DNA of 64,000 nt from Clavelina lepadiformis (taxonomy: Eukaryota; Chordata; Ascidiacea; Aplousobranchia; Clavelinidae). Each line of letters begins with the position of its first letter. Position 1 is the stretch's first letter. The stretch is from contig NC_135244.1 of assembly GCF_947623445.1 (NCBI RefSeq), positions 9,548,001-9,612,000 of the forward strand. The letters are read 5' to 3'. Below are positions 3,001-36,757 of this stretch, one piece after another. The notes under the pieces are model-generated. The model was not told where the DNA came from, made no database searches, and saw only the letters and a list, made by a program, of their open reading frames with translations. The position numbers and the translations under genes were made by a program.

Positions 3001-6000
3001 GCACTGCTGCAAAAGTCTACACAGATATTATTTATTTATTGATGTAACTGTAAGATGTCATTTGGTTAAAGTTAAAGCAATAGCATATCATGAGGTAATT
3101 TTTTAGTTTGATTAAGACTAAGCCAGAAAAAACTACTTAACACATATATTTTTTTTTAATTGTTACTGGTGACTTACTGTCAAAAAAGGAAAGTACTTCT
3201 TTTACATAAAATTATAAATAAAATTAGCAGAATATATGAGCATCTGTGTATTAATATACTCAGTATTCACCTGTAATTGTCCTCATAACTAGAAGGATCA
3301 GCCTCATTTGAATATGCAGATAAAAGTGAAGACACCTCATCAGTACTTAGCTGAGAACCTGATGCTGGATCTCCTTTTAACTTTACTGCATTTAAAATGA
3401 GACATATTAAAACACATTACTACATCGTAGGCCAAAGTTTAAGCAACAATTATCACTAACCATAAATTAAATAGTATTCAAACAGGGCATCGCCACAACC
3501 TAAATCGCTGTTTGCAATGAGCAGAGGTGTTGTTATGTGCTGCATTATGACATCATTTGATACATAGAGTTTCCAATTACAAATATTTTGCTTTTCTGAC
3601 ATAGCTTTGTGCAATCCTAGGTCAGTAGATTCTTTAATTGAATGCACCAGCTTACGAGCCCACATTGCATGATAGTTGTCTGTAGGTGATTTATGGCCTA
3701 GCTAAAGGTAATTTTTATTGTGCCAAAAACATAATGGTATTGGTGATAATTTGTGTACACAACTAATACCATTTTCTAAGAAAAGCTTTGGTGTGTAGTT
3801 TTAGCAAACTAATTACCAATTGCATAATGAGTTTGCTGATACCAAGTTAGCTATAGGTAATTTATTAGAAAGACCACAAATGAACAAAATATTGCCGTCT
3901 GTTTACCTACAACTATCATTGTTTTGCAACACTCAGTATAAATCAGGTTGTTGTTAGTAGTATAGTGAACTATTACCAAACCTTTGGTTTCCAAACTTGT
4001 ATAGGCCTATAATTAGTCTTATAAAAATATTACATGCATGTTGTCGGCCTACACACAAAATACAGTACAGCACAAAATTGTGTCCTACATCTCCAAACTA
4101 GCTTAAGAATAGCCAAAAATGAAACTGACAGTTGATCAATCCATAACATGGGATCAAAAGTTGGCAATTATAAAAAAATTGAGGTATACTTGTGAACATC
4201 TCATAACACACAACTTAGAAAATACTGAACTAGAAAATTTAGGCAATAACACTGTTTGCCCTACATATTAACTGATTTTGACTTTGATGATGAAACTGTA
4301 CCAACAATGCAAGTCTTAAAAAGTCTTCTAAATGTAATCTTTTGTTGGCTACTCCATCTAAACACCAACTCTACCGCGGTTTGAAAGCTGAACGTATTTA
4401 ACGTTTGTGAAACGAACGCAAGGATTGTGGCAGACCCAAGCACAATTTTTGGGTGTGCCATACATACTTGATGACTATGGTAATGTAAGTATGTGGATAG
4501 CTTGATAAAAAGGGAATGATACGGGCATATGTCACTTGAGCAGTTGCAGTCTTTTGATGGAGGTAGGGCAAAAAGCAGTTTATATTTTTGAAGAAAATGT
4601 CTACTACACTGAATAGTAGGTCCAGCTCTCATAGCTACTGACAGTTGACAGAGAGGCAGTTTGGTTAGCAGACTCTTAACGAAAACTAAAAAAATGAACA
4701 TGTGTAGTGCATAACCAATACATGAGGGCATGAGCTGCAAGCAAGCAATGCCACAACTAGGGATGTACTGGGTTGAATCTGAGGCCGAACACTCGCCCGG
4801 GGATTGAAATAATTTCTAATATTCGCATGTACCGCAGATATCTCATTATTCACACTGAGAGTCTCTTAGTAACGTTTTCAGTCTATTTATTTGCACACCT
4901 ATCCAGTAAACTCTGGATTACTTGAGTTTTAACCAAATTTACTCATGTGCATGGTTGTATCGTAAACTCCTGTACAAATTATAATTGAAGAGAACAAGAG
5001 ACCCTTGACGCGTGTTTGCTCATACAAAAAATGAATAAGTAGGCTAAGGCCATATATTTCCGCGTGTTTGTTCATACCCAAACCTGATTGTTTATATATT
5101 AGATGTAATGACGAGAAACAACCTATTATTGTCAAATGCCTGCGCAATGGAGAAGGTTAATTTTTTCAGTTAGTACCATCAGCAATTGCGTTAAAAATTC
5201 CGGAAAAGTGGTTGCTAAGGCATAAAATTCTCACAAAAAATTAAAGAACTTGCATTTGGAACAGACAAATTGCAGGCAAGTACTGCTTAGTGTTGCTGTT
5301 CAATAACTGCGTTCAATGTATGTATGACACGTTGTATCTAGGGTTATTTCGGATATCAATAATTTTTACTATCCGGATAACGGATATATCCGTATATTTG
5401 GAATTTATCTAACCGGTTAACCGGATAATAACTGCTAAGTGAGACAATCGATTTCACGAGGTTTGCATGAAAAATGGATTGTAAAATCATTACACAGTTT
5501 TATTGTAGATCTACGTACACGCGCAGTACGAGCGAATACGAGAAAAATTACGCAAATTTAATGTTCACTGCTTCTGCAACGCCCTCCTCCGCGCCACGCC
5601 AACGCAACGCCATCGTAGAAAGTAGCCCCAAACTGGATTATCACTTTTGAAACGTTTAAATTCCATCTCTTAAATTTAGTCACTTCAAACTAGGTTGTAG
5701 TCAAAGCTTTTCAACTGACACTTCACAGACTTTACCTTGCCATGAGAATGCAGTCTTCTATTAAAAGAATCATTCATTATGCTTTCTTTGTGACGTGATA
5801 GTAAATTTCACTCGTGCATTTTACGAGTACCGTAGTTGAAAGTATAAGACAATGGAAGTGTGAACAAAGGTTTAATTGCGCTCAGCGGGAGTCAGCCTCT
5901 ACGTAACAAAGAATGTTCAAACTTACTAAAAAGTGTAAAACGCATTAGCAACGATACTCTTTTAGCCGGTTAACCGGCAGAATTATATCCGGATATCAGA

Positions 6001-13604: not shown

Positions 13605-15225
13605 TATGGAACGCCAACGCCGCAAAAATAGCAAAGTGTTAAATTGAATCGCAAGTATGCAGTTTATGTATTGTTTTCATAATTTGATTGGAAGGTTTTC
13701 AAACGTAACTTTATAGATTCAAATCACGAAACAACAAGCCAAACGTCAAAACCGGCATTCAAACGGGCTTTTCTGTGATTGCTGTTGCACGATTCATATG
13801 CCAATTATCAAAATGGTTTCGCAACATTTACAATTACACCACAGTTTTATAAACTTGATTTTTTTAAATCAAACCACGACATTTTAAGTCAGATATAAGA
13901 ACTGCAAAGCAAACTGGCTGTTGGCAAGTCACAATGCCTAATGGCAAATGGTATTTTCTTTAATCGGATTGCAGTTTTGTTAATCACATGTCGGTTTTTT
14001 GAATCATGTAACTTATACCATGAATTATAAAATGGCCAAATGATTGGAAATTAGTCTTCGTGAATTAAAAATGGGCGAACCAATTTGCAAAATACATGCG
14101 TGATTAAACAAACATGCATTCCTAAAAGCACTAAATGATTCTATAAAAGTACGTATGAATCGCATAACGTCTTCATGAATTGCCAAGTATAGATGGATCG
14201 GCAAATGTATAGATGATTTGCCAAAAGTACATGATTCGCTAAATGTACATGATTCGGTAAATGTATGCATGAATCCCCAAATGTACGTGATTCGACAAAT
14301 GCATGAATGAATCGCCAAATGTACGTGATTCGACAAATGCATGAATGAATCGCTAAATATACGTGATTCGATAAATGTATGCGTGAATCGCCAAATGTAC
14401 GTGATTCGATAAATGTATGCGTGAATCGCCAAATGTACATGATTCGATAAATGTATGCGTGAATCGCCAAATGTACATGATTCGATAAATGTATGCGTGA
14501 ATCGCCAAATGTACGTGATTCGATAAATGTATGCGTGAATCGCCAAATGTACATGATTCGATAAATGTATGCGTGAATCGCCAAATGTACATGATTCGAT
14601 AAATGTATGCGTGAATCGCCAAATGTACATGATTCGATAAATGTATGCGTGAATCGCCAAATGTACATGATTCGATAAATGTATGCGTGAATCGCCAAAT
14701 GTACATGATTCGATAAATGTATGCGTGAATCGCCAAATGTACATGATTCGATAAATGTATGCGTGAATCGCCAAATGTACATGATTCGATAAATGTATGC
14801 GTGAATCGCCAAATGTACATGATTCGATAAATGTATGGATGGTTCGTTGTTAGAGTGCGCCGCGCCAAGTGTGCAAAAATGTCTCTCTTGGGGAAAAAAT
14901 GTCTCTCTTGGGAATACCAAGAAGAAAAATCCTATTCTGGCTAGTCTTTCAAGAGCGCCTTTTAGCGTTTTATTAAGCAGCACATGAGGTTGGTTGGGTT
15001 TCTTTCATTTTGCAGTCAAAATTGCAGACCTGAATGGAAAGGAATTAACAATTGCAAGAGTGCAGGGTTGTAGTATTGGCTACTTAAGTATAACACGTTA
15101 TCAGTAACTTGCTTTTTGTAGACAAGTTGATTAAAGTTAAAGTCTGTTTGTCCATACAACGTTTTAAACAACCCCATTACAATTTCAAGAAATGGAAGGA
15201 TTTGGGAGGTAAGCCTACGTAAATT
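13605..15225 (+). repeat. Left terminal inverted repeat, outer copy
   Basis: 1,621 bp from the outer tip to the point where similarity to the right end stops. In order it holds the 19-bp tip, a region of scattered AATCACG/GATTCA half-units, the 38-bp array, a unique stretch, and a short exon with ATG (15192-15208) followed by a GTAAGC donor. Compared with the right repeat it lacks about 257 bp next to 14925. Confidence 0.88.
14230..14840. repeat. 38-bp subterminal tandem array (left, outer)
   Basis: About 16 units of 38 bp. Each unit is a diverged dimer: one half reads CGAATCATGTACATTTGG, the other CGATTCACGCATACATTTAT in the opposite-strand orientation. About 12 consecutive units are almost identical, and the proximal four are variants. 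Likely transposase-binding sites. The period is 3n+2 and the unit has no stop, so long meaningless ORFs appear in all three reverse frames. Confidence 0.93.
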
Positions 15226-16622
15226 CGGGGCAAATATCAAATGCATAACCACATGCAGAATGAATCTTCTTATGATGGAGATATTCAGTTTGCAAGTGAT
15301 CTTTGTTGTAGGTGTCATTTTTGCTGTACTTTACATCTGTTTTTGCGTTTTTACAGTGACTTGATGAACTTGTTGTCTACCGAAAATACACAACAGGAAG
15401 CCCCCTCAACCTCAGGAACAGTGCGAAGCACATTAAATAGATTATTTGGAAGGGTAAGGTTCAAGATAAAGGTTACAAGGTGTACTCTATTGATATGTAG
15501 GCCTAGGTTATATTCCAGTATACAATGAGACCTCGTTAATCCGAACCCCGAACAACCAAAATCCCCGCTATCCGACACAAAACTGCCGGGAACGGATTTG
15601 ATTCTATGCATTTACCCCTTTAATCCGGAAACCCCGCTTTCCGACTCCGACACAAAAGTTTTGGAACAAATATGCTAACAGCGTGGTCCAGCTTCCTTTC
15701 ATCGCTGGCCAAAATCAGAAGTTTTTTTTATCTTGCGGGCCAATGTTTTTAAATTAGAACTGAAGAACAATGTATTAAGAACAATGAAGAACGTATTACG
15801 TTTGTCGTGTTAAATGTAATTTGTTAGACTTGTGCTAAACGATGAATGTTAAGTTGTGAACGTATTATAATCGGAATCTGTACAGTTCCTACAATAAAGG
15901 ATTGTTTTCTAATAAACGGCATCTGTTAATCGTGATAGCTTTCGGCCAGTGCCAGTAGTAACACGTTAAGGTTAGAGATTTCTAACCGCACGCAACCACG
16001 GAGTCAGATCATTAATTCGGCAGGTAAATTAAGACCGAATAGCAAGTTAAACCAACCAGCGACCTCCGCAAATCAATAGCCGATTATCTACGCATAATAA
16101 CGTTGCGGTCTTTATTGATTCAAAAGTACATTACTGTACAGCATTGCGCTTTGTTTGTTCATCAACAGTAACCGACAACGCTTCCGCGGTCGCAAAAAAA
16201 ATATGTACAGTACATCGGTTGAGTGCGGCAATCTATTGAAGACATACTGTTGCAACTCAATCGTGCTATCAGCTTTTGATATCGCATTGCGCAAAGATTA
16301 GAAATATAAACCATCTCTTTAACCATTTCACCTCTTTATACTGTTTGTCATAGATTGCAAATGAAAATTGATAAATAATGCCATTAAGTTCTATTTCACG
16401 TTTTAAATTTTTATTTTAAGAGTTCAAATGCAAGAAGTCATCAAACACAACCTTATTGTAGACCGTCATGCACTAGAACGCAGAAGCATCCAAAAGGTGA
16501 TACTGTGGTTTTTTTAATACCACAATAATGCTAGAGTAGTAGTGAACATCATTGCATGGTTGTCGTTACATCAACTTACTGTGTTCAGTTTTTTCAGAAA
16601 AAACTTTTACTAAGGTAATGTG
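15192..16622 (+). pseudogene. HECT ligase gene, outer copy: 5' part, cut by the inner transposon
   Basis: Exons 1-3 (15192-15208, 15357-15453, 16421-16496) and the first 25 bases of exon 4 (16598-16622). They match the inner gene at +3018. The reading frame is broken off at the AATGTG insertion site, and the rest of the gene lies 10.3 kb away at 26923-29701. In this state the outer gene can hardly give a normal transcript. Confidence 0.85.
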
Positions 16623-18243
16623 TATGGAACGCCAACGCCGCAAAAATAGCAAAGTGTTAAATTGAATCGCAAGTATGCAGTTTATGTATTGTTTTCATAA
16701 TTTGATTGGAAGGTTTTCAAACGTAACTTTATAGATTCAAATCACGAAACAACAAGCCAAACGTCAAAACCGGCATTCAAACGGGCTTTTCTGTGATTGC
16801 TGTTGCACGATTCATATGCCAATTATCAAAATGGTTTCGCAACATTTACAATTACACCACAGTTTTATAAACTTGATTTTTTTAAATCAAACCACGACAT
16901 TTTAAGTCAGATATAAGAACTGCAAAGCAAACTGGCTGTTGGCAAGTCACAATGCCTAATGGCAAATGGTATTTTCTTTAATCGGATTGCAGTTTTGTTA
17001 ATCACATGTCGGTTTTTTGAATCATGTAACTTATACCATGAATTATAAAATGGCCAAATGATTGGAAATTAGTCTTCGTGAATTAAAAATGGGCGAACCA
17101 ATTTGCAAAATACATGCGTGATTAAACAAACATGCATTCCTAAAAGCACTAAATGATTCTATAAAAGTACGTATGAATCGCATAACGTCTTCATGAATTG
17201 CCAAGTATAGATGGATCGGCAAATGTATAGATGATTTGCCAAAAGTACATGATTCGCTAAATGTACATGATTCGGTAAATGTATGCATGAATCCCCAAAT
17301 GTACGTGATTCGACAAATGCATGAATGAATCGCCAAATGTACGTGATTCGACAAATGCATGAATGAATCGCTAAATATACGTGATTCGATAAATGTATGC
17401 GTGAATCGCCAAATGTACGTGATTCGATAAATGTATGCGTGAATCGCCAAATGTACATGATTCGATAAATGTATGCGTGAATCGCCAAATGTACATGATT
17501 CGATAAATGTATGCGTGAATCGCCAAATGTACGTGATTCGATAAATGTATGCGTGAATCGCCAAATGTACATGATTCGATAAATGTATGCGTGAATCGCC
17601 AAATGTACATGATTCGATAAATGTATGCGTGAATCGCCAAATGTACATGATTCGATAAATGTATGCGTGAATCGCCAAATGTACATGATTCGATAAATGT
17701 ATGCGTGAATCGCCAAATGTACATGATTCGATAAATGTATGCGTGAATCGCCAAATGTACATGATTCGATAAATGTATGCGTGAATCGCCAAATGTACAT
17801 GATTCGATAAATGTATGCGTGAATCGCCAAATGTACATGATTCGATAAATGTATGGATGGTTCGTTGTTAGAGTGCGCCGCGCCAAGTGTGCAAAAATGT
17901 CTCTCTTGGGGAAAAAATGTCTCTCTTGGGAATACCAAGAAGAAAAATCCTATTCTGGCTAGTCTTTCAAGAGCGCCTTTTAGCGTTTTATTAAGCAGCA
18001 CATGAGGTTGGTTGGGTTTCTTTCATTTTGCAGTCAAAATTGCAGACCTGAATGGAAAGGAATTAACAATTGCAAGAGTGCAGGGTTGTAGTATTGGCTA
18101 CTTAAGTATAACACGTTATCAGTAACTTGCTTTTTGTAGACAAGTTGATTAAAGTTAAAGTCTGTTTGTCCATACAACGTTTTAAACAACCCCATTACAA
18201 TTTCAAGAAATGGAAGGATTTGGGAGGTAAGCCTACGTAAATT
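16623..18243 (+). repeat. Left terminal inverted repeat, inner copy
   Basis: Same sequence as the outer left repeat, offset by 3018 bp, with the same array length and the same gap relative to the right repeat. The shared start exon is at 18210-18226. Confidence 0.88.
17248..17858. repeat. 38-bp subterminal tandem array (left, inner)
   Basis: Same unit number and the same variant order as the outer left array, 3018 bp further on. Tandem arrays normally drift in copy number quickly, so equal length points to a very recent common origin of the two copies. Confidence 0.93.
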
Positions 18244-21200
18244 CGGGGCAAATATCAAATGCATAACCACATGCAGAATGAATCTTCTTATGATGGAGAT
18301 ATTCAGTTTGCAAGTGATCTTTGTTGTAGGTGTCATTTTTGCTGTACTTTACATCTGTTTTTGCGTTTTTACAGTGACTTGATGAACTTGTTGTCTACCG
18401 AAAATACACAACAGGAAGCCCCCTCAACCTCAGGAACAGTGCGAAGCACATTAAATAGATTATTTGGAAGGGTAAGGTTCAAGATAAAGGTTACAAGGTG
18501 TACTCTATTGATATGTAGGCCTAGGTTATATTCCAGTATACAATGAGACCTCGTTAATCCGAACCCCGAACAACCAAAATCCCCGCTATCCGACACAAAA
18601 CTGCCGGGAACGGATTTGATTCTATGCATTTACCCCTTTAATCCGGAAACCCCGCTTTCCGACTCCGACACAAAAGTTTTGGAACAAATATGCTAACAGC
18701 GTGGTCCAGCTTCCTTTCATCGCTGGCCAAAATCAGAAGTTTTTTTTATCTTGCGGGCCAATGTTTTTAAATTAGAACTGAAGAACAATGTATTAAGAAC
18801 AATGAAGAACGTATTACGTTTGTCGTGTTAAATGTAATTTGTTAGACTTGTGCTAAACGATGAATGTTAAGTTGTGAACGTATTATAATCGGAATCTGTA
18901 CAGTTCCTACAATAAAGGATTGTTTTCTAATAAACGGCATCTGTTAATCGTGATAGCTTTCGGCCAGTGCCAGTAGTAACACGTTAAGGTTAGAGATTTC
19001 TAACCGCACGCAACCACGGAGTCAGATCATTAATTCGGCAGGTAAATTAAGACCGAATAGCAAGTTAAACCAACCAGCGACCTCCGCAAATCAATAGCCG
19101 ATTATCTACGCATAATAACGTTGCGGTCTTTATTGATTCAAAAGTACATTACTGTACAGCATTGCGCTTTGTTTGTTCATCAACAGTAACCGACAACGCT
19201 TCCGCGGTCGCAAAAAAAATATGTACAGTACATCGGTTGAGTGCGGCAATCTATTGAAGACATACTGTTGCAACTCAATCGTGCTATCAGCTTTTGATAT
19301 CGCATTGCGCAAAGATTAGAAATATAAACCATCTCTTTAACCATTTCACCTCTTTATACTGTTTGTCATAGATTGCAAATGAAAATTGATAAATAATGCC
19401 ATTAAGTTCTATTTCACGTTTTAAATTTTTATTTTAAGAGTTCAAATGCAAGAAGTCATCAAACACAACCTTATTGTAGACCGTCATGCACTAGAACGCA
19501 GAAGCATCCAAAAGGTGATACTGTGGTTTTTTTAATACCACAATAATGCTAGAGTAGTAGTGAACATCATTGCATGGTTGTCGTTACATCAACTTACTGT
19601 GTTCAGTTTTTTCAGAAAAAACTTTTACTAAGGTAATGTGTATTGTACCTGAATTGAACCAAGACAAGCCGCCGTCAGCTCAACAAAAGTTAGATTTGTT
19701 CAAATGTGGACTCGGCGAAAAAGCGGTTACATTTGCTGCTCTTGACACAAAAGAGGAATTGGACCAAAAGCTGAAAAGGTTCAGTGTTTTGTACTTCACA
19801 GTTTTGCTTATATGGCTTTAAAAGTAGTTTACTGCTTTAGTACTCTCATTAAAACTGTTTTCTACAGCGCTTTTCCGCCATTGTCTGAGTGTGGAGGGTA
19901 TTGTATATTGGTTAATTCTGGCAAGGGGCTGATAAATATATCTTTCGGACCTTGTGAAGCCATGATGCTTAAGAAGGCATTGGGTACAGGAAAGGTTTAT
20001 TTGAGGCCTATCCAAAAAAACATATCTCTTTCATCCTTTGAAAACAAATCGCAAAATGTAGAAAAATGCTTGACTTGTGGGGAAGTTATTTCACTTCCAG
20101 AAATGCAACAACATATCTTAGAAAAACACAAGGTATAAATGAAATTTGTTACTACGTCAGTACACTTCTACCATATGATATATTTAACTGCATCCAAGCA
20201 CTCTATGGTAGAACACGTCAGTCGAGCAATCAAGTAATTCAGTAATGTCTGAAGATGATGACAGTTTGCCCAGTTTCTCTCAAAGTTCCAACGCACAATC
20301 ATCCTCAGTGTCAGGTCCAGAGCAGTTCAATGCACCAGTAGATGTACCATCTATACTAATTAATGACAGTGACAATGAAGACATAATCGTTGGAGCAATT
20401 AATGACAAAATATCCGGAGATCCTTCTCACTCAGATGGTGCAGTCATCAGTTCTTTGATGGAAAAGCTGAGGAGCATAATGCAAGAATTTTAATATGTTA
20501 TACATTACATCAAAATATTATAATACTTTCAGAACAGAAGAGTTTTAGAAACATTGTTTTAAAAAAAATTTTTTGATTTCATAGTAGCTCAGCGAATTAG
20601 TAATACGTCAAGCAGATGTATTGTATTAGGCTATGTACTAGCACTAAAAGATAATACATGTTGATTATTTCATTAATGTTTAGGAAACATGATGAAGAAG
20701 AGCCTTGTCAAATTTTAAGATTGTATCAGAGTCTATTTCTTCAGGGTAGACAGTTAGATGCAGACGAAACTATGGCAGTACAAGATGGCGAGGTTTCCCA
20801 CATTTTTGTTTCCAGAGCAAATCCTCTGGAAACAGCTGCAGAAGAAATGTTGGGCTTGGAAAATATTAGGTTTCCTTTATGTGTTCAGTTTTATGGCGAA
20901 ACAGCATTGGATACTGGTGGTCCACGTAGAGACTTTTTCAGGTACAAATAAAGTGTAACTTGATGGCTTTTACCTGGTAGCTGGACCACATGAGATAATT
21001 TTTTTCTATTCGTAGATTAATGAAAGGATTTCTTGCAAGTGTTGTTTTAATTATTCAATTTGTTAAAAACTTTACTTGCAGAATAATGATCCAAGCTATG
21101 ATGGAGAAAAATATTTTCGAAGAGAAAGAAAACAACGTAACTCTGTGCAAAAATGAAAGTCTTGTGCATAAACAATGGTATTATGTATGTGGACTTGTTG

Positions 21201-22419
21201 TAGGTAAATTTGAGTTCCCATGTGTAACTATTGTATGTTTATGTGTTTCTCAGAAACAGTTGTAATTTTTTTAGGTCTTAGTTGCTTGGAAGGCGGAGAT
21301 AATATCCATTTAAAGGAAGAGTTATTGACGGAAATTGGTACCGATATATATACAAAACAATTTCAGCAAGGATTGTGCAAATGTGGAATAATGAAAGTAC
21401 TTACATCTGATTAGAAATTTTATAACATATATTATACAAGTCTGATAGAATATGAAGCTTCAGCTAATATGTTTCACAATACACAGATGCGTCCATTGTA
21501 ATGCGTGTTCTCATGTTGTTATAACTAGCCCCAATCCATACATGCCTTCTTGAAATGCGACACGTTTTGTACATCGTAACAATACAGCCTAATTTCTGAT
21601 AAAGTTGCTAATGACTTGAAACTATTCTGCTATGCGTGTTAATATAGACAAGTTTGTTATGGTGTTTCTTGCTTTTTAAGCTTCTTACAGCATTTCCGGT
21701 ATTGAAATATATCTGGACTAATCCAGCAAACCGAATTGTTACGGTTGGGAAGTTGTTGAATAATTTTAAAGTGAACTTCTCTCCGGAAGGGAGCAATAGT
21801 AGAAAGGATGAGGAGAGGGCATACAGCATCTTCGTAAGCTATGTCCGTGAAGTTGCAGGTGAACATGATATTTAAGCAGTCGTAAGTTTGAGGCAAAATG
21901 TCAAGCAGAAGTAATTGATAAAAAGTGATTCATTATTAATTTATTATTGATGGCACTTTCTATGTTTAGCTATTCTGCGCTCTTTGAAGTTAAATATTTG
22001 TAAGCATAGCATACCGACAACTAGTTTTAACTTCATCAATCTGTTAAAGTTAATTGATGTGCGGCCGTTGTAAAGATGATGTCGTTTTTGGCGTATTAAG
22101 GCTGTTGTATTGTAAATAGATATCCAAAACAGTAAACATAAACGTTCATTTAGGTGCTGGAAGAAAAGACTTTATTTCCATCAATTTGCAGTCAATCTTG
22201 GCTTACATTACTGGCAATTCGTCAATACCTGTGCTTGGATTTAACCCCCCTGCAACAATCTCATTTCAAGCAGACCATGGTGCGTTTCTACCGCAAGCTC
22301 ACACATGCATCAACCAGTTTGTGCTGAGTAGAGTACAACATGGTGCAAATCCGGAGACAGTAAAACGAGGCCTTGACTGGGCATTTTCGTCGATGGACTT
22401 TGGAGCAGAAAATGTGTGA
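18210..22419 (+). CDS. Transposon-borne HECT E3 ubiquitin ligase (G2E3-like), inner copy
   Basis: Predicted exons: 18210-18226, 18375-18471, 19439-19514, 19616-19778, 19868-20132, about 20212-20490, 20684-20941, 21082-21203, 21275-21396, 21681-21858, 22154-22419. Phases agree at all junctions except exon 6/7, whose exact joint I could not settle. The start exon (MEGFG) lies in the left inverted repeat. In order the roughly 610-aa product has a Ser/Thr/Gln-rich leader, a basic stretch, a region like fish G2E3-like proteins (LGEKAVTF; GKVYLRPIQKNISL), a CCHH zinc finger (CLTCGEVISLPEMQQHILEK, then H), and an acidic linker with SILINDSDNED. The HECT N-lobe carries VQFYGETALDTGGPRRDFF, and the C-lobe ends with LPQAHTCINQFVL. 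The Cys in HTC is the expected ubiquitin-accepting residue. The region after GLSCLEGG is shorter than I remember for the family. Its role in transposition is unknown. Confidence 0.8.
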
Positions 22420-22473
22420 CATAATTGGGACTCGGTTTATTTGTCAGTGTAAAGTAATTGAACGCATTACATT

Positions 22474-25115
22474 TCAATTTTCAAGTAAAGCATTGCAAAC
22501 AAGTTTCGCTACCAGGTATACTGCAGGATCATACCAATCTTTTGCTTTAATATGCAATGTCGCAGAGTGCAGTAAGCTTAACTGTTCTTCATTGAGAGGG
22601 CATATGACCCTTGCAACATTAATTGTGGCGTTTTCTGTACTTGCGTTATCGTCCATCTACAAGGATAAAGTTTTATGCTAAATTAGTCTACCTATTTACA
22701 GCAAGACGTATTGTCTGAAGTGTAAAAAATTCACCTGATAATCTGTCATATAGTTACTTAAGTCTTCCTCTTTCATTAACTGGAGCAACCCTGCAACATA
22801 TAGTTTTTTAGGACTTCGATTGTTTTCTGTTCGCAGGGGATGATGATTCCACATGGAAGTAAATTTGGCAAGGGCTTCATTTATGACGTCTTTGTAGCAA
22901 TAATGTAAACAAAAAATATCAACTTCATTTTCCACATCCAACGTCTCATTATTTTCCAATTTGTAGAACAGCCGGTGGAAGTTAATAGCCTGAAAAGACA
23001 AGTTGTGTCAATATCAGAGTTGAAAGACAAACTTACGTTACAATGAGTATTGCCATCTATCACTATAAATTCATTGTTGTGAAAATAGCAGTAATATTCT
23101 GGAATAGCCTAGAGTTTTATAACACTGCAATAATACTAAACATGTAAACCTACTGCTAAGAAACAAAAAAACTTTACCACAGATTCAAAGACATCTCTCC
23201 ATAAGCGCTCAATGCGGGAGTTATGCACACTTTTTCCAGTTATAAAGCTACCCCTTGACAGACCACGTAACGGATGTTCCAGCATATATCGTGCCACTTC
23301 ATAATTTTCCATTCCTTTATCGGATCTGACCTATATAAAATAAAAAAACAAACATATCCCCTGATTATTATGATTTTCCAAAAATGTAATAACATTTCAA
23401 TCTTACTCGTGATGGAAGGCCATACGTGTGTACACCATTTTTGAAATGCCTGACAACTGTTGCTGCCCTGTTGTTGTCCTGGCAGCTAAGATAAACCACC
23501 AACCTTGAAAAGCCGTCAATGCAGCCATGTATAACAAAACGCCATCAACAAAAAAAATAGTTGCAAAGGCAGCTTCGCAAACAGAAACCAGATTAACAAC
23601 ATTACAGAATAATGTCGTTCCAAATGTTCTATATGCCTGTACCTTATCAGCTTGTGGTGTGAGTCAATATGCCACAATGCTAGCGGTGATCTCACACTAT
23701 ACACACGTCGTTGTATACATTTCACTTTTCGCCGTTCCACTCCAGTTGGATCAACCTTTTTCACAGATTTTCTCAAACGACCACGTTGCACACAAACACC
23801 TTGACTCTTTAAGGCCGCTTGTATGGCCTTATAACCTTTACGGACAGAAAGGTATAGTGCTCCGATGAGAATAGAAATCAAGTACACACATGTAAGAACA
23901 CAATTTACAGCATGCAGCAGGGGTGGGCAAACTTGTTCAATGAAAGAGTCACTTGCGGAAAAATATGAACAGCAGCGAGCCGCAAAATCAGTAATGATTG
24001 TCAATTTGGTTGATATACTATTAGTAGTCATTTTGGGATAATACTTTTTAGCTAGAAGACCCATAAAAAACATGGTGGATAAATACACAATTAATGTATC
24101 GATTCAGGAATCTGGCCGGCCAAGTACTTTATTTTCTCATATCAGGCCCGCCGACCGAAAAAGTTGCCCGCCCCCGACAGAGAGTATAGAATCTATATCT
24201 GAAAACAATGTCGGATTCTATGTCTAATGTTACGTCATAAACGAAATGTTGGCCTAAATAAACAAAACAATAGACAGAAACGTTCATAAACGGTAGCTAC
24301 CTACTCTTGGTAGCCTTTACAATTTTTTTGAAATTTTACGGTTCGACCAGAAGAGCCACAAAAAATATGCCGGAGAGCCGCATGCGGCTCGTGAGCCCCA
24401 GTTTGCCCACGTCGGCATGTAGCATAGCTGCAGTGAAAACTTACCAACTCAAGTTTTACAACAACTGAAAAGCAACTTCACGGCTTGCCGCAAAATAACC
24501 CTCCGAAAGAGCATGTGAATAACCAAGGATAACTTCATAACGCGAAGCAATGTAATCGGTTCTTACCTGAATTTGGAAAATGTTTAGTTAGGTTGAAAAC
24601 TTTTTCATCCAACTCTTCATCATCCAATATGGTATATTTGTGTGAGACTGCCAAGTCAAATTCATTCATCCTATATTCAACAGTGCGTTTGCTGACATTT
24701 AATGTTGATGCAATTTCATGGATATTAAAGTCTTGAGCTAGCAAACACAAACAAGCAAATTCAAATATAATTCAAGAAGCTGCTTAACCCCATCAATCGT
24801 TGATTTGGACCAAAAGTATAACGTTGACTTGTCTGGCACTTTATTTAATGGCGTATTTATAAAGCGCACTGAAAACATACTTTCCGATAGGGGTGCCATA
24901 CCAATCCTAATCACAGAGTTCAAATACCTAATAGAAATTCAATTTGTTCTTGGGTAATAGGTATCCTTTTGCGTCCAGGTGTCGTTCTTGCTACGTCTAC
25001 CTCTTGCACGCTGCCACTGGAAACGTAACCGCAGTGACTACAAAAATGTACCAACGTCTACTGTTGCTTATAACACACGATAATTTACGTAGGCTTACCT
25101 CCCAAATCCTTCCAT
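22474..25115 (-). CDS. Integrase-fold DDE transposase, inner copy
   Basis: Predicted exons: 25099-25115, 24928-25037, 24567-24737, 23643-23835, 23407-23545, 23178-23330, optional 23037-23108, 22735-22989, 22474-22656. The product is about 406 aa (430 with the optional exon). The first exon (MEGFG) lies in the right inverted repeat. Next come [18 protein letters not shown] and a helix-turn-helix ([19 protein letters not shown]). The catalytic core has D1 in [15 protein letters not shown]2 in VRSDKGMEN and E in [12 protein letters not shown]2 and E are separated by 36 residues, as in integrases. The C-terminal part carries [19 protein letters not shown] and [13 protein letters not shown]. It resembles the integrase-core proteins common in fish and cnidarian genomes. 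The start of exon 5 lacks a visible AG acceptor. AATAAA on this strand at 22437-22442 follows the stop by 31 bp. Confidence 0.82.
23919..24414. mobile_element. hAT-type MITE in the transposase intron (inner copy)
   Basis: Left end CAGGGGTGGGCAAACTT, right end CAGTTTGCCCACGTCG (partly decayed). It is flanked by GCATGCAG (23911-23918) and GCATGTAG (24415-24422), an 8-bp duplication with one difference. It contains GAGCCGCATGCGGCTC. It lies wholly inside intron 3 of the integrase gene, so it should be spliced out. Confidence 0.85.
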
Positions 25116-26916
25116 TTCTTGAAATTGTAATGGGTTTGTTTAAAACGTTGTATGGACAAACAGACTTTAACTTTAATCAACTTGTCTACAAAAAGCAAGT
25201 TACTGATAACGTGTTATACTTAAGTAGCCAATACTACAACCCTGCACTCTTGCAATTGTTAATTCCTTTCCATTCAGGTCTGCAATTTTGACTGCAAAAT
25301 GAAAGAAACCCAACCAACCTCATGTGCTGCTTAATAAAACGCTAAAAGGCGCTCTTGAAAGACTAGCCAGAATAGGATATACCAGCCTACCACGGCACTG
25401 CGGTACTGGCCCAACTTAATGATCACATTTCAAATAGAACATAACCTAACGCGTGTAGTGTTGAAATAACTTCTAAAGAAACATCCCATTTTTCAAAGCG
25501 AACAAAACCAAGCTTACGCTTATTCCTGATTGCAAAGTATTTTGCACTGACTGTACACGACTATACGGCAACTTTCGGCCTGGCCGAAACATAAGCTATT
25601 AAGAAAACTTTCTGTTCTGTCAAAATCCCTTTTTCTTCTTGGTATTCCCAAGAGAGACATTTTTTCCCCAAGAGAGACATTTTTGCACACTTGGCGCGGC
25701 GCACTCTAACAACGAACCATCCATACATTTATCGAATCATGTACATTTGGCGATTCACGCATACATTTATCGAATCATGTACATTTGGCGATTCACGCAT
25801 ACATTTATCGAATCACGTACATTTGGCGATTCACGCATACATTTGTCGAATCACGTACATTTGGCGATTCACGCATACATTTATCGAATCACGTACATTT
25901 GGCGAATCATGCATACATTTGTCGAATCATGTACATTTGGCGATTCATGCATACATTTATCGAATCATGTACATTTGGCGATTCATTCATGCATTTGTCG
26001 AATCACGTACATTTGGCGATTCACGCATACATTTATCGAATCACGTATATTTAGCGATTCATTCATGCATTTGTCGAATCATGTACATTTGGCGATTCAT
26101 TCATGCATTTGTCGAATCACGTACATTTGGCGATTCATGCATACATTTACCGAATCATGTACATTTGGCGATTCATGCATACATTTACCGAATCATGTAC
26201 ATTTGGCGATTCATGCATGCATTTACCGAATCATGTACATTTGGCGATTCATACATGCATTTACCGAATCATGTACATTTAGCGATTCATGCACTTTTGG
26301 CAAATCATGTATACATTTGCCGATCCATCTATACTTGGCAATTCATGAACACATTATGCGATTCATACGTAATTTTATAGAATCATTTAGTGCTTTTAGG
26401 AATGCATGTTTGTTTAATCACGTATGTATTTTGCAAATTGGTTCGCCCATTTTTAATTCACGAAGACTAATTTCCAATCATTTCGCCATTTTATAATTCA
26501 TGGTATAAGTTACATGATTCAAAAAACCGACATGTGATTAACAAAACTGCAATCCGATTAAAGAAAATACCATTTGCCATTAGGCATTGTAACTTGCCAA
26601 CAGCCAGTTTGCTTTGCAGTTCTTATATCTGACTTAAAATGTCGTGGTTTGATTTAAAAAAATCAAGTTTATAAAACTGTGGTGTAATTGTAAATGTTGC
26701 GAAACCATTTTGATAATTGGCATATGAATCGTGCAACAGCAATCACAGAAAAGCCCGTTTGAATGCCGGTTTTGACGTTTGGTTTGTTGTTTCGTGATTT
26801 GAATCTATAAAGTTACGTTTGAAAACCTTCCAATCAAATTATGAAAACAATACATAAATTGCATACTTGCGATTCAATTTAACACTTTGCTATTTTTGCG
26901 GCGTTGGCGTTCCATA
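25082..26916 (-). repeat. Right terminal inverted repeat, inner copy
   Basis: 1,835 bp. In reverse complement it follows the left repeat through the start exon (25099-25115) to the tip. It carries about 257 bp at 25379-25635 that the left repeat lacks. Most of that stretch is also present in the older right end at 34604-35772, so the left repeat has lost it. The 38-bp array here is more varied than on the left. Confidence 0.88.
25728..26293. repeat. 38-bp subterminal tandem array (right, inner)
   Basis: About 15 units of the same 38-bp dimer in inverted orientation. Units are heterogeneous (ATGCATACATTTACC, TTCATGCATTTGTCG and other forms), unlike the near-uniform left array. Left and right arrays have therefore been homogenised separately. 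Confidence 0.92.
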
Positions 26917-26922
26917 AATGTG

Positions 26923-29701
26923 TATTGTACCTGAATTGAACCAAGACAAGCCGCCGTCAGCTCAACAAAAGTTAGATTTGTTCAAATGTGGACTCGGCGA
27001 AAAAGCGGTTACATTTGCTGCTCTTGACACAAAAGAGGAATTGGACCAAAAGCTGAAAAGGTTCAGTGTTTTGTACTTCACAGTTTTGCTTATATGGCTT
27101 TAAAAGTAGTTTACTGCTTTAGTACTCTCATTAAAACTGTTTTCTACAGCGCTTTTCCGCCATTGTCTGAGTGTGGAGGGTATTGTATATTGGTTAATTC
27201 TGGCAAGGGGCTGATAAATATATCTTTCGGACCTTGTGAAGCCATGATGCTTAAGAAGGCATTGGGTACAGGAAAGGTTTATTTGAGGCCTATCCAAAAA
27301 AACATATCTCTTTCATCCTTTGAAAACAAATCGCAAAATGTAGAAAAATGCTTGACTTGTGGGGAAGTTATTTCACTTCCAGAAATGCAACAACATATCT
27401 TAGAAAAACACAAGGTATAAATGAAATTTGTTACTACGTCAGTACACTTCTACCATATGATATATTTAACTGCATCCAAGCACTCTATGGTAGAACACGT
27501 CAGTCGAGCAATCAAGTAATTCAGTAATGTCTGAAGATGATGACAGTTTGCCCAGTTTCTCTCAAAGTTCCAACGCACAATCATCCTCAGTGTCAGGTCC
27601 AGAGCAGTTCAATGCACCAGTAGATGTACCATCTATACTAATTAATGACAGTGACAATGAAGACATAATCGTTGGAGCAATTAATGACAAAATATCCGGA
27701 GATCCTTCTCACTCAGATGGTGCAGTCATCAGTTCTTTGATGGAAAAGCTGAGGAGCATAATGCAAGAATTTTAATATGTTATACATTACATCAAAATAT
27801 TATAATACTTTCAGAACAGAAGAGTTTTAGAAACATTGTTTTAAAAAAAATTTTTTGATTTCATAGTAGCTCAGCGAATTAGTAATACGTCAAGCAGATG
27901 TATTGTATTAGGCTATGTACTAGCACTAAAAGATAATACATGTTGATTATTTCATTAATGTTTAGGAAACATGATGAAGAAGAGCCTTGTCAAATTTTAA
28001 GATTGTATCAGAGTCTATTTCTTCAGGGTAGACAGTTAGATGCAGACGAAACTATGGCAGTACAAGATGGCGAGGTTTCCCACATTTTTGTTTCCAGAGC
28101 AAATCCTCTGGAAACAGCTGCAGAAGAAATGTTGGGCTTGGAAAATATTAGGTTTCCTTTATGTGTTCAGTTTTATGGCGAAACAGCATTGGATACTGGT
28201 GGTCCACGTAGAGACTTTTTCAGGTACAAATAAAGTGTAACTTGATGGCTTTTACCTGGTAGCTGGACCACATGAGATAATTTTTTTCTATTCGTAGATT
28301 AATGAAAGGATTTCTTGCAAGTGTTGTTTTAATTATTCAATTTGTTAAAAACTTTACTTGCAGAATAATGATCCAAGCTATGATGGAGAAAAATATTTTC
28401 GAAGAGAAAGAAAACAACGTAACTCTGTGCAAAAATGAAAGTCTTGTGCATAAACAATGGTATTATGTATGTGGACTTGTTGTAGGTAAATTTGAGTTCC
28501 CATGTGTAACTATTGTATGTTTATGTGTTTCTCAGAAACAGTTGTAATTTTTTTAGGTCTTAGTTGCTTGGAAGGCGGAGATAATATCCATTTAAAGGAA
28601 GAGTTATTGACGGAAATTGGTACCGATATATATACAAAACAATTTCAGCAAGGATTGTGCAAATGTGGAATAATGAAAGTACTTACATCTGATTAGAAAT
28701 TTTATAACATATATTATACAAGTCTGATAGAATATGAAGCTTCAGCTAATATGTTTCACAATACACAGATGCGTCCATTGTAATGCGTGTTCTCATGTTG
28801 TTATAACTAGCCCCAATCCATACATGCCTTCTTGAAATGCGACACGTTTTGTACATCGTAACAATACAGCCTAATTTCTGATAAAGTTGCTAATGACTTG
28901 AAACTATTCTGCTATGCGTGTTAATATAGACAAGTTTGTTATGGTGTTTCTTGCTTTTTAAGCTTCTTACAGCATTTCCGGTATTGAAATATATCTGGAC
29001 TAATCCAGCAAACCGAATTGTTACGGTTGGGAAGTTGTTGAATAATTTTAAAGTGAACTTCTCTCCGGAAGGGAGCAATAGTAGAAAGGATGAGGAGAGG
29101 GCATACAGCATCTTCGTAAGCTATGTCCGTGAAGTTGCAGGTGAACATGATATTTAAGCAGTCGTAAGTTTGAGGCAAAATGTCAAGCAGAAGTAATTGA
29201 TAAAAAGTGATTCATTATTAATTTATTATTGATGGCACTTTCTATGTTTAGCTATTCTGCGCTCTTTGAAGTTAAATATTTGTAAGCATAGCATACCGAC
29301 AACTAGTTTTAACTTCATCAATCTGTTAAAGTTAATTGATGTGCGGCCGTTGTAAAGATGATGTCGTTTTTGGCGTATTAAGGCTGTTGTATTGTAAATA
29401 GATATCCAAAACAGTAAACATAAACGTTCATTTAGGTGCTGGAAGAAAAGACTTTATTTCCATCAATTTGCAGTCAATCTTGGCTTACATTACTGGCAAT
29501 TCGTCAATACCTGTGCTTGGATTTAACCCCCCTGCAACAATCTCATTTCAAGCAGACCATGGTGCGTTTCTACCGCAAGCTCACACATGCATCAACCAGT
29601 TTGTGCTGAGTAGAGTACAACATGGTGCAAATCCGGAGACAGTAAAACGAGGCCTTGACTGGGCATTTTCGTCGATGGACTTTGGAGCAGAAAATGTGTG
29701 A
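26923..29701 (+). pseudogene. HECT ligase gene, outer copy: 3' part
   Basis: Remainder of exon 4 (to 27060) and exons 5-11 (27150-27414 through 29436-29701), identical in translation to the inner gene at -7282. It includes the zinc finger, both HECT lobes and the catalytic-Cys motif HTCINQF. It has lost its start exon and promoter to the insertion. An internal ATG (MCIVPELNQ) begins at 26918, directly after the duplicated target, so a short N-truncated product is conceivable but unsupported. Confidence 0.85.
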
Positions 29702-29755
29702 CATAATTGGGACTCGGTTTATTTGTCAGTGTAAAGTAATTGAACGCATTACATT

Positions 29756-32397
29756 TCAATTTTCAAGTAAAGCATTGCAAACAAGTTTCGCTACCAGGTA
29801 TACTGCAGGATCATACCAATCTTTTGCTTTAATATGCAATGTCGCAGAGTGCAGTAAGCTTAACTGTTCTTCATTGAGAGGGCATATGACCCTTGCAACA
29901 TTAATTGTGGCGTTTTCTGTACTTGCGTTATCGTCCATCTACAAGGATAAAGTTTTATGCTAAATTAGTCTACCTATTTACAGCAAGACGTATTGTCTGA
30001 AGTGTAAAAAATTCACCTGATAATCTGTCATATAGTTACTTAAGTCTTCCTCTTTCATTAACTGGAGCAACCCTGCAACATATAGTTTTTTAGGACTTCG
30101 ATTGTTTTCTGTTCGCAGGGGATGATGATTCCACATGGAAGTAAATTTGGCAAGGGCTTCATTTATGACGTCTTTGTAGCAATAATGTAAACAAAAAATA
30201 TCAACTTCATTTTCCACATCCAACGTCTCATTATTTTCCAATTTGTAGAACAGCCGGTGGAAGTTAATAGCCTGAAAAGACAAGTTGTGTCAATATCAGA
30301 GTTGAAAGACAAACTTACGTTACAATGAGTATTGCCATCTATCACTATAAATTCATTGTTGTGAAAATAGCAGTAATATTCTGGAATAGCCTAGAGTTTT
30401 ATAACACTGCAATAATACTAAACATGTAAACCTACTGCTAAGAAACAAAAAAACTTTACCACAGATTCAAAGACATCTCTCCATAAGCGCTCAATGCGGG
30501 AGTTATGCACACTTTTTCCAGTTATAAAGCTACCCCTTGACAGACCACGTAACGGATGTTCCAGCATATATCGTGCCACTTCATAATTTTCCATTCCTTT
30601 ATCGGATCTGACCTATATAAAATAAAAAAACAAACATATCCCCTGATTATTATGATTTTCCAAAAATGTAATAACATTTCAATCTTACTCGTGATGGAAG
30701 GCCATACGTGTGTACACCATTTTTGAAATGCCTGACAACTGTTGCTGCCCTGTTGTTGTCCTGGCAGCTAAGATAAACCACCAACCTTGAAAAGCCGTCA
30801 ATGCAGCCATGTATAACAAAACGCCATCAACAAAAAAAATAGTTGCAAAGGCAGCTTCGCAAACAGAAACCAGATTAACAACATTACAGAATAATGTCGT
30901 TCCAAATGTTCTATATGCCTGTACCTTATCAGCTTGTGGTGTGAGTCAATATGCCACAATGCTAGCGGTGATCTCACACTATACACACGTCGTTGTATAC
31001 ATTTCACTTTTCGCCGTTCCACTCCAGTTGGATCAACCTTTTTCACAGATTTTCTCAAACGACCACGTTGCACACAAACACCTTGACTCTTTAAGGCCGC
31101 TTGTATGGCCTTATAACCTTTACGGACAGAAAGGTATAGTGCTCCGATGAGAATAGAAATCAAGTACACACATGTAAGAACACAATTTACAGCATGCAGC
31201 AGGGGTGGGCAAACTTGTTCAATGAAAGAGTCACTTGCGGAAAAATATGAACAGCAGCGAGCCGCAAAATCAGTAATGATTGTCAATTTGGTTGATATAC
31301 TATTAGTAGTCATTTTGGGATAATACTTTTTAGCTAGAAGACCCATAAAAAACATGGTGGATAAATACACAATTAATGTATCGATTCAGGAATCTGGCCG
31401 GCCAAGTACTTTATTTTCTCATATCAGGCCCGCCGACCGAAAAAGTTGCCCGCCCCCGACAGAGAGTATAGAATCTATATCTGAAAACAATGTCGGATTC
31501 TATGTCTAATGTTACGTCATAAACGAAATGTTGGCCTAAATAAACAAAACAATAGACAGAAACGTTCATAAACGGTAGCTACCTACTCTTGGTAGCCTTT
31601 ACAATTTTTTTGAAATTTTACGGTTCGACCAGAAGAGCCACAAAAAATATGCCGGAGAGCCGCATGCGGCTCGTGAGCCCCAGTTTGCCCACGTCGGCAT
31701 GTAGCATAGCTGCAGTGAAAACTTACCAACTCAAGTTTTACAACAACTGAAAAGCAACTTCACGGCTTGCCGCAAAATAACCCTCCGAAAGAGCATGTGA
31801 ATAACCAAGGATAACTTCATAACGCGAAGCAATGTAATCGGTTCTTACCTGAATTTGGAAAATGTTTAGTTAGGTTGAAAACTTTTTCATCCAACTCTTC
31901 ATCATCCAATATGGTATATTTGTGTGAGACTGCCAAGTCAAATTCATTCATCCTATATTCAACAGTGCGTTTGCTGACATTTAATGTTGATGCAATTTCA
32001 TGGATATTAAAGTCTTGAGCTAGCAAACACAAACAAGCAAATTCAAATATAATTCAAGAAGCTGCTTAACCCCATCAATCGTTGATTTGGACCAAAAGTA
32101 TAACGTTGACTTGTCTGGCACTTTATTTAATGGCGTATTTATAAAGCGCACTGAAAACATACTTTCCGATAGGGGTGCCATACCAATCCTAATCACAGAG
32201 TTCAAATACCTAATAGAAATTCAATTTGTTCTTGGGTAATAGGTATCCTTTTGCGTCCAGGTGTCGTTCTTGCTACGTCTACCTCTTGCACGCTGCCACT
32301 GGAAACGTAACCGCAGTGACTACAAAAATGTACCAACGTCTACTGTTGCTTATAACACACGATAATTTACGTAGGCTTACCTCCCAAATCCTTCCAT
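29756..32397 (-). CDS. Integrase-fold DDE transposase, outer copy
   Basis: Same exons as the inner gene at +7282 (32381-32397, 32210-32319, 31849-32019, 30925-31117, 30689-30827, 30460-30612, optional 30319-30390, 30017-30271, 29756-29938), with identical translations. The nested insertion does not touch it, since its start exon is in the outer right repeat. Catalytic D, D and E motifs are present. If the gene is active, the outer copy could still supply transposase although its HECT gene is split. Confidence 0.82.
31201..31696. mobile_element. hAT-type MITE in the transposase intron (outer copy)
   Basis: The same insertion at +7282 with the same imperfect target duplication (GCATGCAG/GCATGTAG). 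The MITE entered the ancestor of both transposon copies. Confidence 0.85.
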
Positions 32398-34198
32398 TTC
32401 TTGAAATTGTAATGGGTTTGTTTAAAACGTTGTATGGACAAACAGACTTTAACTTTAATCAACTTGTCTACAAAAAGCAAGTTACTGATAACGTGTTATA
32501 CTTAAGTAGCCAATACTACAACCCTGCACTCTTGCAATTGTTAATTCCTTTCCATTCAGGTCTGCAATTTTGACTGCAAAATGAAAGAAACCCAACCAAC
32601 CTCATGTGCTGCTTAATAAAACGCTAAAAGGCGCTCTTGAAAGACTAGCCAGAATAGGATATACCAGCCTACCACGGCACTGCGGTACTGGCCCAACTTA
32701 ATGATCACATTTCAAATAGAACATAACCTAACGCGTGTAGTGTTGAAATAACTTCTAAAGAAACATCCCATTTTTCAAAGCGAACAAAACCAAGCTTACG
32801 CTTATTCCTGATTGCAAAGTATTTTGCACTGACTGTACACGACTATACGGCAACTTTCGGCCTGGCCGAAACATAAGCTATTAAGAAAACTTTCTGTTCT
32901 GTCAAAATCCCTTTTTCTTCTTGGTATTCCCAAGAGAGACATTTTTTCCCCAAGAGAGACATTTTTGCACACTTGGCGCGGCGCACTCTAACAACGAACC
33001 ATCCATACATTTATCGAATCATGTACATTTGGCGATTCACGCATACATTTATCGAATCATGTACATTTGGCGATTCACGCATACATTTATCGAATCACGT
33101 ACATTTGGCGATTCACGCATACATTTGTCGAATCACGTACATTTGGCGATTCACGCATACATTTATCGAATCACGTACATTTGGCGAATCATGCATACAT
33201 TTGTCGAATCATGTACATTTGGCGATTCATGCATACATTTATCGAATCATGTACATTTGGCGATTCATTCATGCATTTGTCGAATCACGTACATTTGGCG
33301 ATTCACGCATACATTTATCGAATCACGTATATTTAGCGATTCATTCATGCATTTGTCGAATCATGTACATTTGGCGATTCATTCATGCATTTGTCGAATC
33401 ACGTACATTTGGCGATTCATGCATACATTTACCGAATCATGTACATTTGGCGATTCATGCATACATTTACCGAATCATGTACATTTGGCGATTCATGCAT
33501 GCATTTACCGAATCATGTACATTTGGCGATTCATACATGCATTTACCGAATCATGTACATTTAGCGATTCATGCACTTTTGGCAAATCATGTATACATTT
33601 GCCGATCCATCTATACTTGGCAATTCATGAACACATTATGCGATTCATACGTAATTTTATAGAATCATTTAGTGCTTTTAGGAATGCATGTTTGTTTAAT
33701 CACGTATGTATTTTGCAAATTGGTTCGCCCATTTTTAATTCACGAAGACTAATTTCCAATCATTTCGCCATTTTATAATTCATGGTATAAGTTACATGAT
33801 TCAAAAAACCGACATGTGATTAACAAAACTGCAATCCGATTAAAGAAAATACCATTTGCCATTAGGCATTGTAACTTGCCAACAGCCAGTTTGCTTTGCA
33901 GTTCTTATATCTGACTTAAAATGTCGTGGTTTGATTTAAAAAAATCAAGTTTATAAAACTGTGGTGTAATTGTAAATGTTGCGAAACCATTTTGATAATT
34001 GGCATATGAATCGTGCAACAGCAATCACAGAAAAGCCCGTTTGAATGCCGGTTTTGACGTTTGGTTTGTTGTTTCGTGATTTGAATCTATAAAGTTACGT
34101 TTGAAAACCTTCCAATCAAATTATGAAAACAATACATAAATTGCATACTTGCGATTCAATTTAACACTTTGCTATTTTTGCGGCGTTGGCGTTCCATA
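32364..34198 (-). repeat. Right terminal inverted repeat, outer copy
   Basis: Identical in content to the inner right repeat, offset by 7282 bp. Start exon at 32381-32397, 38-bp array at about 33010-33575, tip at 34198. Confidence 0.88.
33010..33575. repeat. 38-bp subterminal tandem array (right, outer)
   Basis: Same unit count and order as the inner right array, offset by 7282 bp. Confidence 0.92.
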
Positions 34199-34603: not shown

Positions 34604-35772
34604 TAGAACATAACCTAACGCGTGTTTTGTTGAAATAACTTCTAAAGAAACATCCCATTCTTCATTGCGAACAAAACTAAGCTTACGCTTATTGCTGATC
34701 GCAAAGTATTTTGCACTGACGGTACACGGTAACTTTCGGCCTGCCCGAAACATAGGCTATTCAGAAAACTTTGTCTTCTCTCAAAATCCCTTTTTCTTCT
34801 TGGTATCCCCGAGAGAGACATTTTTTCCCCAATAGAGACATTTTTGCACACTTGGCGCGGCGCACTCTAACAACGAACCATCCATACATTTGTCGATTCA
34901 CGTACATTTTGCGATTCACGCATACATTCATCGAATCACGTACATTTGGCGATTCACGCATACATTTGTCGAATCACGTACATTTGGCGATTCACGCATA
35001 CATTTACCGAATCACGTACATTTGGCGATTCATGCATGCATTTACCGAATCATGTACATTTGGCGATTCATGCATGCATTTACCGAATCATGTACATTTG
35101 GCGATTCATGCATGCATTTACCGAATCATGTACATTTGGCGATTCATGCACTTTTGGCAAATCATCTATACATTTGCCGATCCATCTATACTTGGCAATT
35201 CATGAAGACGTTATGTGATTCATACGTACTTTTATAGAATCATTTAGTGCTTTTAGGAATGCATGTTTGTTTAATCACGTATGTATTTTGCAAATTGGTT
35301 CGCCCATTTTTAATTCACGAAGACTAATTTCCAATCATTTGGCCATTTTATAATTCATGGTATAAGTTACATGATTCAAAAAACCGACATGTGATTAACA
35401 AAACTGCAATCCGATTAAAGAAAATACCATTTGCCATTAGGCATTGTAACTTGCCAACAGCCAGTTTGCTTTGCAGTTGTTATATCTGACTTGAAATGTC
35501 GTGGTTTGATTTAAAAAATCAAGTTTATAAAACTGTGGTGTAATTGTAAATGTTGCGAAACCATTTTGATAATTGCCATATGAATCGTGCAACAGCAATC
35601 ACAGAAAAGACCGTTTGATTGCCGGCTTTGGCGTTTGGCTTGTTGTTTCGTGATTTGAATCTATAAAATTACGTTTCAAAACCTTCCAATCAAATTATGA
35701 AAACAAAACATAATTTGCAAAGTTCCCATTCCAATTAACATTTTGCTATTTTTGCGGCGTTGGCGTTCCATA
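34604..35772 (-). mobile_element. Older right end of the same HECT/integrase transposon family
   Basis: From GAACATAACCTAACGCGTG to the tip GGCGTTGGCGTTCCATA it follows the inner right repeat from about 25435 onward, with scattered substitutions. The 38-bp array is shorter (about 34890-35150). It lacks any gene. The pogo fragment at its left inserted at a TA that in the intact copies reads AAATAGAACATAAC. The right flank is CTAATA, with no partner found on the left. Confidence 0.85.
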
Positions 35773-36757
35773 CTAATAATGTCAATGTTTGTGAAAAAAA
35801 CAATCAACGTCCAACACAAAACTGATTAAAGGATGCGAAAATATCACATAGCTTCATATTTCATATAATAACACCTGGAGAAGCAAGATTAAGCTTGCAA
35901 AAGTTGATAGAAATAAATTAAAGTTAACCTTTGAAGTGCTACGTTATTCTACTATGGCTGTTACACTGTAATACTGCATACTGTAAATTTATGTTTTATC
36001 TGCGTATTTGTAACTCGCCATACAAGACTTGCCAGACAGTATGTCAATCAAGGAACCTAAAAGTTTGACAAACAAACCACGTACATACAGATTGTTGTGA
36101 AGAGTATGCTTATTCTTTTGTAATAGCGTACGTATTCCGGTGGGCTTTTTTGCCAATAGACCTTGGGCTTCAGTCCCATCAGCCTGCGCCTTAACCCATT
36201 ACTGATTGTGAAATAGGGGAACGTGTTTTACTTACGGTTTTTTTCCTTTACTACTCCTCATTGGCTATATTATATTACTATAATAACCACTGCAATATTG
36301 TATATTAAGTACGATGCTATGACGTGAAAGCTTCAGACAGCATTGTTATAAAACAATGACTAAAGTCAGGAACATAATAATTGGCTGATCTTGAAACATG
36401 ACGGATTGTTGTCATTCTGGTTATTTAGCATTGAGAGGAAGTTTATAAAGGTCCTGCAGCCTACACTAATCGTGGTGTAGCTTATTATTGAATAGCATAG
36501 GTTTGTATAACTTTTTTCGGACAAGTCTATTTCAGCAGTTTGCAGTGAAAATGACGTTTAGAAAAATGCAAAATCTAAAAACATTTTCAGAGATTCTGTC
36601 ATTATATCCTCCCAAATACTATTTTATGCTGACACTAGCGTATTTAGGAGGCATTGGGCCACACCCCTCATGAATCTTACGTTTTTAAATCATAGGCCTC
36701 CTTAAATTTTCAGTTAATTTCGTTTATTGCATTTCTTTGTTTGCGACCACTTATCAG

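Follow-up and report, generated by a model that had tools for sequence, protein, structure and literature searches.

A start exon carried in both inverted arms of a Clavelina lepadiformis DNA transposon begins the transposase and likely also a predicted HECT-type ligase

Can one short exon, carried in both inverted arms of a transposon, provide the beginning of two different proteins? The question is raised by a DNA transposon on chromosome 5 of Clavelina lepadiformis, which occupies 16623-26916 (10,294 bp) of the window, the window being the whole stretch of 64,000 nucleotides that was analysed. A first-pass annotation had described a 17-nt exon in each terminal repeat, and had suggested that it starts both convergent genes of the element, a transposase and a HECT-type ligase, from identical promoters, with concerted evolution of the repeats keeping expression of the two proteins matched. 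The exon (ATGGAAGGATTTGGGAG), its donor GTAAGC and both of its positions, 18210-18226 (+) on the HECT side and 25099-25115 (-) on the transposase side, proved exact to the base. Joined to the exons that start at 18375 and 25037, the leader was also in frame with both genes as proposed, reading MEGFGSDLMNLLS... on the HECT side; the chance of being in phase with the second gene, taken alone, is about 1-in-3.

The nested element and its transposase

The element begins with TATGGAACGC and ends with GCGTTCCATA, the reverse complement of TATGGAACGC. Reading of its ends and junctions placed the target-site duplication AATGTG at 16617-16622 on the left and at 26917-26922 on the right. On either side lies an interrupted outer element, with a left piece at 13605-16622, in which the HECT gene is cut in exon 4, and a right piece at 26917-34198, whose transposase part is identical to the inner one. 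When outer and inner copies were compared, 13605-16625 matched 16623-19643 at 100% over 3,021 bp and 19635-26916 matched 26917-34198 at 100% over 7,282 bp. The element has inserted itself into HECT exon 4 of an identical copy (13605-34198), leaving two complete, identical transposase genes, and its place within such a copy marks the move as recent. This nesting is also the reason why all four exact occurrences of the 17-mer in the 209-Mb assembly (against none for the reversed control) lie inside the window, the additional two being in the left arm (15192-15208, +) and the right arm (32381-32397, -) of the outer copy. A matching target duplication was looked for at the ends of the outer copy and none was seen. 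An arm fragment that is 86-95% alike was observed at 34604-35773, directly right of the outer element, and a search of 13600-35800 for Rfam families found none.

The termini TATGGAACGC...GCGTTCCATA (TA..TA) are present in the inner copy, the outer copy and the relatives L038 and L040, and the target duplications of these relatives are TGATCG (L038, C2) and CGCACT (L040, C3). Elements of the IS3EU group have TA..TA termini and target duplications of usually 6 bp, according to the excerpted text of PMC10045372. The window element resembles them in its TA..TA ends and 6-bp target duplications, and in having a DDE integrase-like transposase with no recognisable HHCC zinc finger; in the region before the transposase core, Pfam returned weak helix-turn-helix matches only, and neither an integrase zinc domain nor an HHCC motif was found. 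By Pfam the transposase is not of the Mutator (MULE) type: the match was to rva_4, with no Mutator family returned. By its ends, its duplications and its lack of HHCC, the element fits an IS3EU-like DNA transposon.

Exons 2-8 of the transposase gene span 22474-25037 (-), at 24928-25037, 24567-24737, 23643-23835, 23407-23545, 23178-23330, 22735-22989 and 22474-22656 (Pfam rva_4, 279 bits; deposited model P0001). As for the HECT gene below, the junctions were picked by hand from open frame, splice motif and family resemblance. With the leader, the model gave a protein of 406 aa from 8 exons, with no internal stop and a natural stop. Comparison with two relatives over 341 codons, from which exon 8 was left out together with 13 nt of exon 2, gave dN/dS values of 0.29 (L035) and 0.31 (L037); the transposase gene has thus been under purifying selection.

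Deposited models bear directly on the start of this gene. The best 120 of 2,471 matches included three transposase models of C. lepadiformis, each of which began with the leader, as MEGFGS or MEPIGS. Model P0003 begins MEGFGSHCGY, as in the version of the first-pass annotation (the middle of the protein is missing in this model), P0001 begins MEGFGSGSVQ, with an acceptor 21 nt further on, and P0002 begins MEPIGSGSVQ, as in L035. There are two in-frame transposase acceptors 21 nt apart at 25016-25037 (-), of which P0003 and P0001 use one each. The intron at 23546-23642, whose acceptor lies before the exon 23407-23545 (-), has a TG acceptor where the relatives L035 and L037 have AG; the same TG-acceptor junction is contained in P0001.

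In three relatives (L035, L037 and L038) the exon keeps its 17 nt, its ATG and the GTAAGC donor, with three base differences in L035 and L038 and four in L037, and with a loss or gain of 7-8 nt in the leader region that precedes it. A fourth, L039, has 6 extra bases at the end of the start exon. An out-of-frame leader in related elements had been named as a check on the proposal; on the transposase side the leader was in frame in both of the relatives that keep exon 2. Taken from the deposited models and these in-frame relatives, the conclusion that the start exon begins the transposase is well supported.

The arrangement is not a general one. In a second rva_4 family of the same genome (L052, L054-L056), with arms of about 540 bp, the apparent first transposase exon (MNCVECHNEIPD..., then GTGAGT), which was picked by eye, starts about 180 bp inside the end of arm similarity. 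This family therefore appears to start its transposase outside the repeats and would not share its start exon, suggesting that a shared start exon is not general. The beginnings of six chosen animal relatives of the transposase from outside Clavelina also differed from the leader, so the leader itself is not general. This multi-copy family (L052:3250-3774, +, and 4195-5523, -) also has a convergent ORF that looks, by eye, like the C-terminal end of a HECT protein; this ORF gave no Pfam match and no BLASTP match to the deposited HECT model P0121.

Likeness of the two arms

The left inverted arm (16623-18243, +) holds a 38-bp minisatellite, an upstream region, the start exon and the very beginning of the intron. 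The right arm (25082-26916, -) has the same content and a further 251 bp (25379-25629) that are missing from the left arm. The inner arm parts, 17947-18243 and 25082-25378, were identical at 296 of 297 bases (99.7%), with the single mismatch at 18190, 20 nt before the ATG. Outward from the start exon the correspondence runs for 263 bp and then meets the gap in the left arm. Apart from a single base, the claim of identical promoters consequently held over the 263 bp upstream of the ATG but failed further out, where the left arm lacks the 251 bp.

Outer arm parts were alike at 511 of 516 compared bases in the window element and at 515 of 515 in L038. In the parts compared, the arms of L038 had 387 identical and 4 mismatched bases with respect to each other, and each was 92.6% alike to the right arm of the window element. 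Five full-length relatives (L009, L010, L012, L013 and L014) were 80-85% like the start-exon part of the window over most of that part. Likeness of arms was thus 99-100% within an element against about 93% or less between elements, so that the arms of one element change together, and homogenised arms, which concerted evolution of the repeats would produce, are supported. The version of the exon also varies by element (GGATTT versus CCAATT), and the window element has the same version in both arms.

That the two proteins have matched expression is put forward here as a hypothesis. The exon may be shared and matched expression not be favoured, with the arms staying alike through the transposase's need for alike ends and through mutual conversion between them. 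Such a reading agrees with the homogenisation of the arms far from the exon too, as the counts for the outer parts in both elements show, and with the related copies that lack the HECT side and keep the transposase side; the 251-bp difference between the arms gives it mild support. We rate it at slightly under an even chance. It is nonetheless compatible with the sharing of the exon by both genes, our preferred explanation, and denies the matched-expression step only.

The arms have further features of their own. The minisatellite, of about 15 units, lies at 17231-17855 and at 25718-26386, is also present in the arms of relatives, and is open over long stretches in several reading frames. Copies of a 117-bp piece of the inner arm (17947-18063), 94-98% alike, are scattered over at least 16 loci (L016-L031). 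Close to most of them lies a TATGGAACGC end, as though the piece were common to small non-autonomous relatives.

The start of the predicted HECT gene

Exons 2-11 of the predicted HECT-type ligase gene span 18375-22419 (+), at 18375-18471, 19439-19514, 19616-19778, 19868-20132, 20212-20480, 20684-20941, 21082-21203, 21275-21396, 21681-21858 and 22154-22419, and deposited models cover parts of it. With the leader, the predicted protein has 610 aa from 11 exons, no internal stop and a natural stop; one of the donors is GC. Pfam HECT matched at 37.4 bits (cut-off 23.9), and in the deposited model P0121 (393 aa) the AHTC motif was in register with the HECT domain of AREL1 (6jx5; E 2e-06 for the whole match). 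With a HECT domain and its catalytic cysteine motif present, the product is predicted to be a HECT-type E3 ligase.

To rank the splice sites, a rough weight matrix was applied to all GTs and AGs of the window. The leader donor came 13th of 7,539 GTs, a rank in which 4 of the top 13 should be its own copies. By the same rough matrix the HECT acceptor (18375) was in the top 0.4% of AGs of the window and the best within 400 nt; both transposase acceptors were weaker, in the top 8-10%. Where the proposal that the exon serves both genes stood for the transposase, its HECT half draws on these splice signals, the identical arm and the open frame, and the deposited HECT models run against it: neither of the two has the leader, both beginning downstream of it, P0122 in exon 4 and P0121 in exon 6. 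A search with the N-terminal part of the HECT protein gave P0122 as its sole match. The exon-4 start of P0122 is the first ATG that remains in the outer copy after the cut by the inner element, and P0122 may therefore describe this remnant; the same explanation does not apply to the exon-6 start of P0121. Also counted against a shared exon were the predicted status of exons 2-3 in the HECT model, the differences between elements at leader residues 3-4, and the failure to find a HECT-side exon in other copies of this genome.

Those copies were searched in two ways. None of the ten related stretches read at length had a HECT-side leader. Genome-wide, the exon with its donor, allowing up to 3 mismatches, was found at seven places (reversed control, one), four of them in the nested pair and three on the transposase side of relatives. 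Each candidate for a second HECT-side leader was rejected. L038, in which the gene order is as in the window element, in fragments, has lost its left exon by internal deletion. The left inner arm is missing from L035 and L037, in L040 the match of the left arm ends 21 nt short of the ATG, and a left arm was not seen in the stretch read around L039. L051 (C3), a HECT-like stretch, is a broken remnant and has no arms. The start exon is absent from the transposase remnants L057 and L058 and from the arm pieces in L041 and L042.

The exon could then be used by the transposase only, its left copy a passenger of the long arms, with the HECT gene starting from a promoter of its own and a downstream ATG. 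Exon 2 of the HECT gene does have an in-frame ATG, the long arms by themselves would put an exon copy at that end, and the missing leader in both deposited HECT models is as this reading has it. We consider it unlikely, if still worth weighing: the context of the exon-2 ATG is weaker, as judged by eye, the HECT-side arm shares 296 of 297 bases with the arm that serves the transposase, and the strongest acceptor within 400 nt keeps the HECT reading frame. That the nested copy and the identical arms are one element duplicated in assembly is very improbable. Such an error would agree with the 100% identity of the outer copy to the inner one (over 3,021 and 7,282 bp) and with the lack of a matching target duplication at the outer copy. 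Against it, each junction falls precisely at an element end, with a 6-bp duplication, and the assembly was built from 117-fold HiFi reads, as given in the excerpt of PMC10884593; the finding is in any case already present in the arms of the inner element by itself.

We therefore return to the shared exon. The HECT half is a good prediction with the deposited models against it, and on the predicted splicing the start exon likely begins the HECT protein as well. Overall we favour, with reasonable though not high confidence, an IS3EU-like transposon with the same 17-nt start exon at both ends, joined to the transposase and likely also to the predicted HECT-ligase gene. Directly seen are the anatomy, the insertion of the element into its own copy together with the target duplication, the open frames, the deposited transposase models and the greater likeness of arms within an element than between elements. 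Each arm would hold an inward-facing promoter, a 5' leader, a start codon and five amino acids, and a strong splice donor, and the unique middle would supply only acceptors and gene bodies. As to its history, the arms may have grown inward past the first transposase exon, leaving a copy at the other end; the HECT gene would have come to start from the copy at its own end, and homogenisation of the arms would afterwards have held both starts the same.

Precedents and meaning of a shared start

A comparable arrangement is found in an unrelated virus. In herpes simplex, the genes US1 and US12 (encoding ICP22 and ICP47) lie at either end of a unique region and have in common a promoter and a spliced leader, both located in inverted repeats; the exon shared there is untranslated, whereas that of the window element contains the start codon and first residues. 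Among transposons, MuDR of maize carries a pair of convergent genes whose promoters and transcription starts are found within or beside the inverted repeats (PMC3440606, excerpt). The window element is like MuDR in having two convergent genes, one of them for the transposase; its own promoters in the arms are predicted. It differs in that its transposase belongs to another superfamily and in that the excerpted text of PMC3440606 does not describe the MuDR repeats, about 215 bp long, as carrying a shared coding exon. In the open-licence literature we found no account of a HECT gene or a repeat-borne start exon in IS3EU, nor of a repeat in which two different proteins have their start codon and first coding exon. 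To share a coding start exon would go a step beyond the repeat promoters of MuDR, and no printed example of it was found within that literature.

A broader reading, which we offer tentatively and hold to be possible rather than probable, is that the arms are a portable two-way expression cassette, the repeat itself containing the promoter and the splice donor as well as the start codon and leader peptide. An exon caught between the arms in either orientation, given a phase-matching acceptor, would then become a gene, and every protein of the element would take its beginning from the repeats rather than from the cargo. Homogenisation of the arms would make two unrelated proteins change their common N-terminus jointly, as is suggested by the switch between MEPIG and MEGFG, of which both arms now have the same version.

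Since the element has moved recently, the question can be addressed in living animals. If confirmed by RNA, a shared start would mean that a transposon need not evolve another promoter and start in order to gain a second gene, and that the beginnings of two unrelated proteins are tied to the concerted evolution of its arms.
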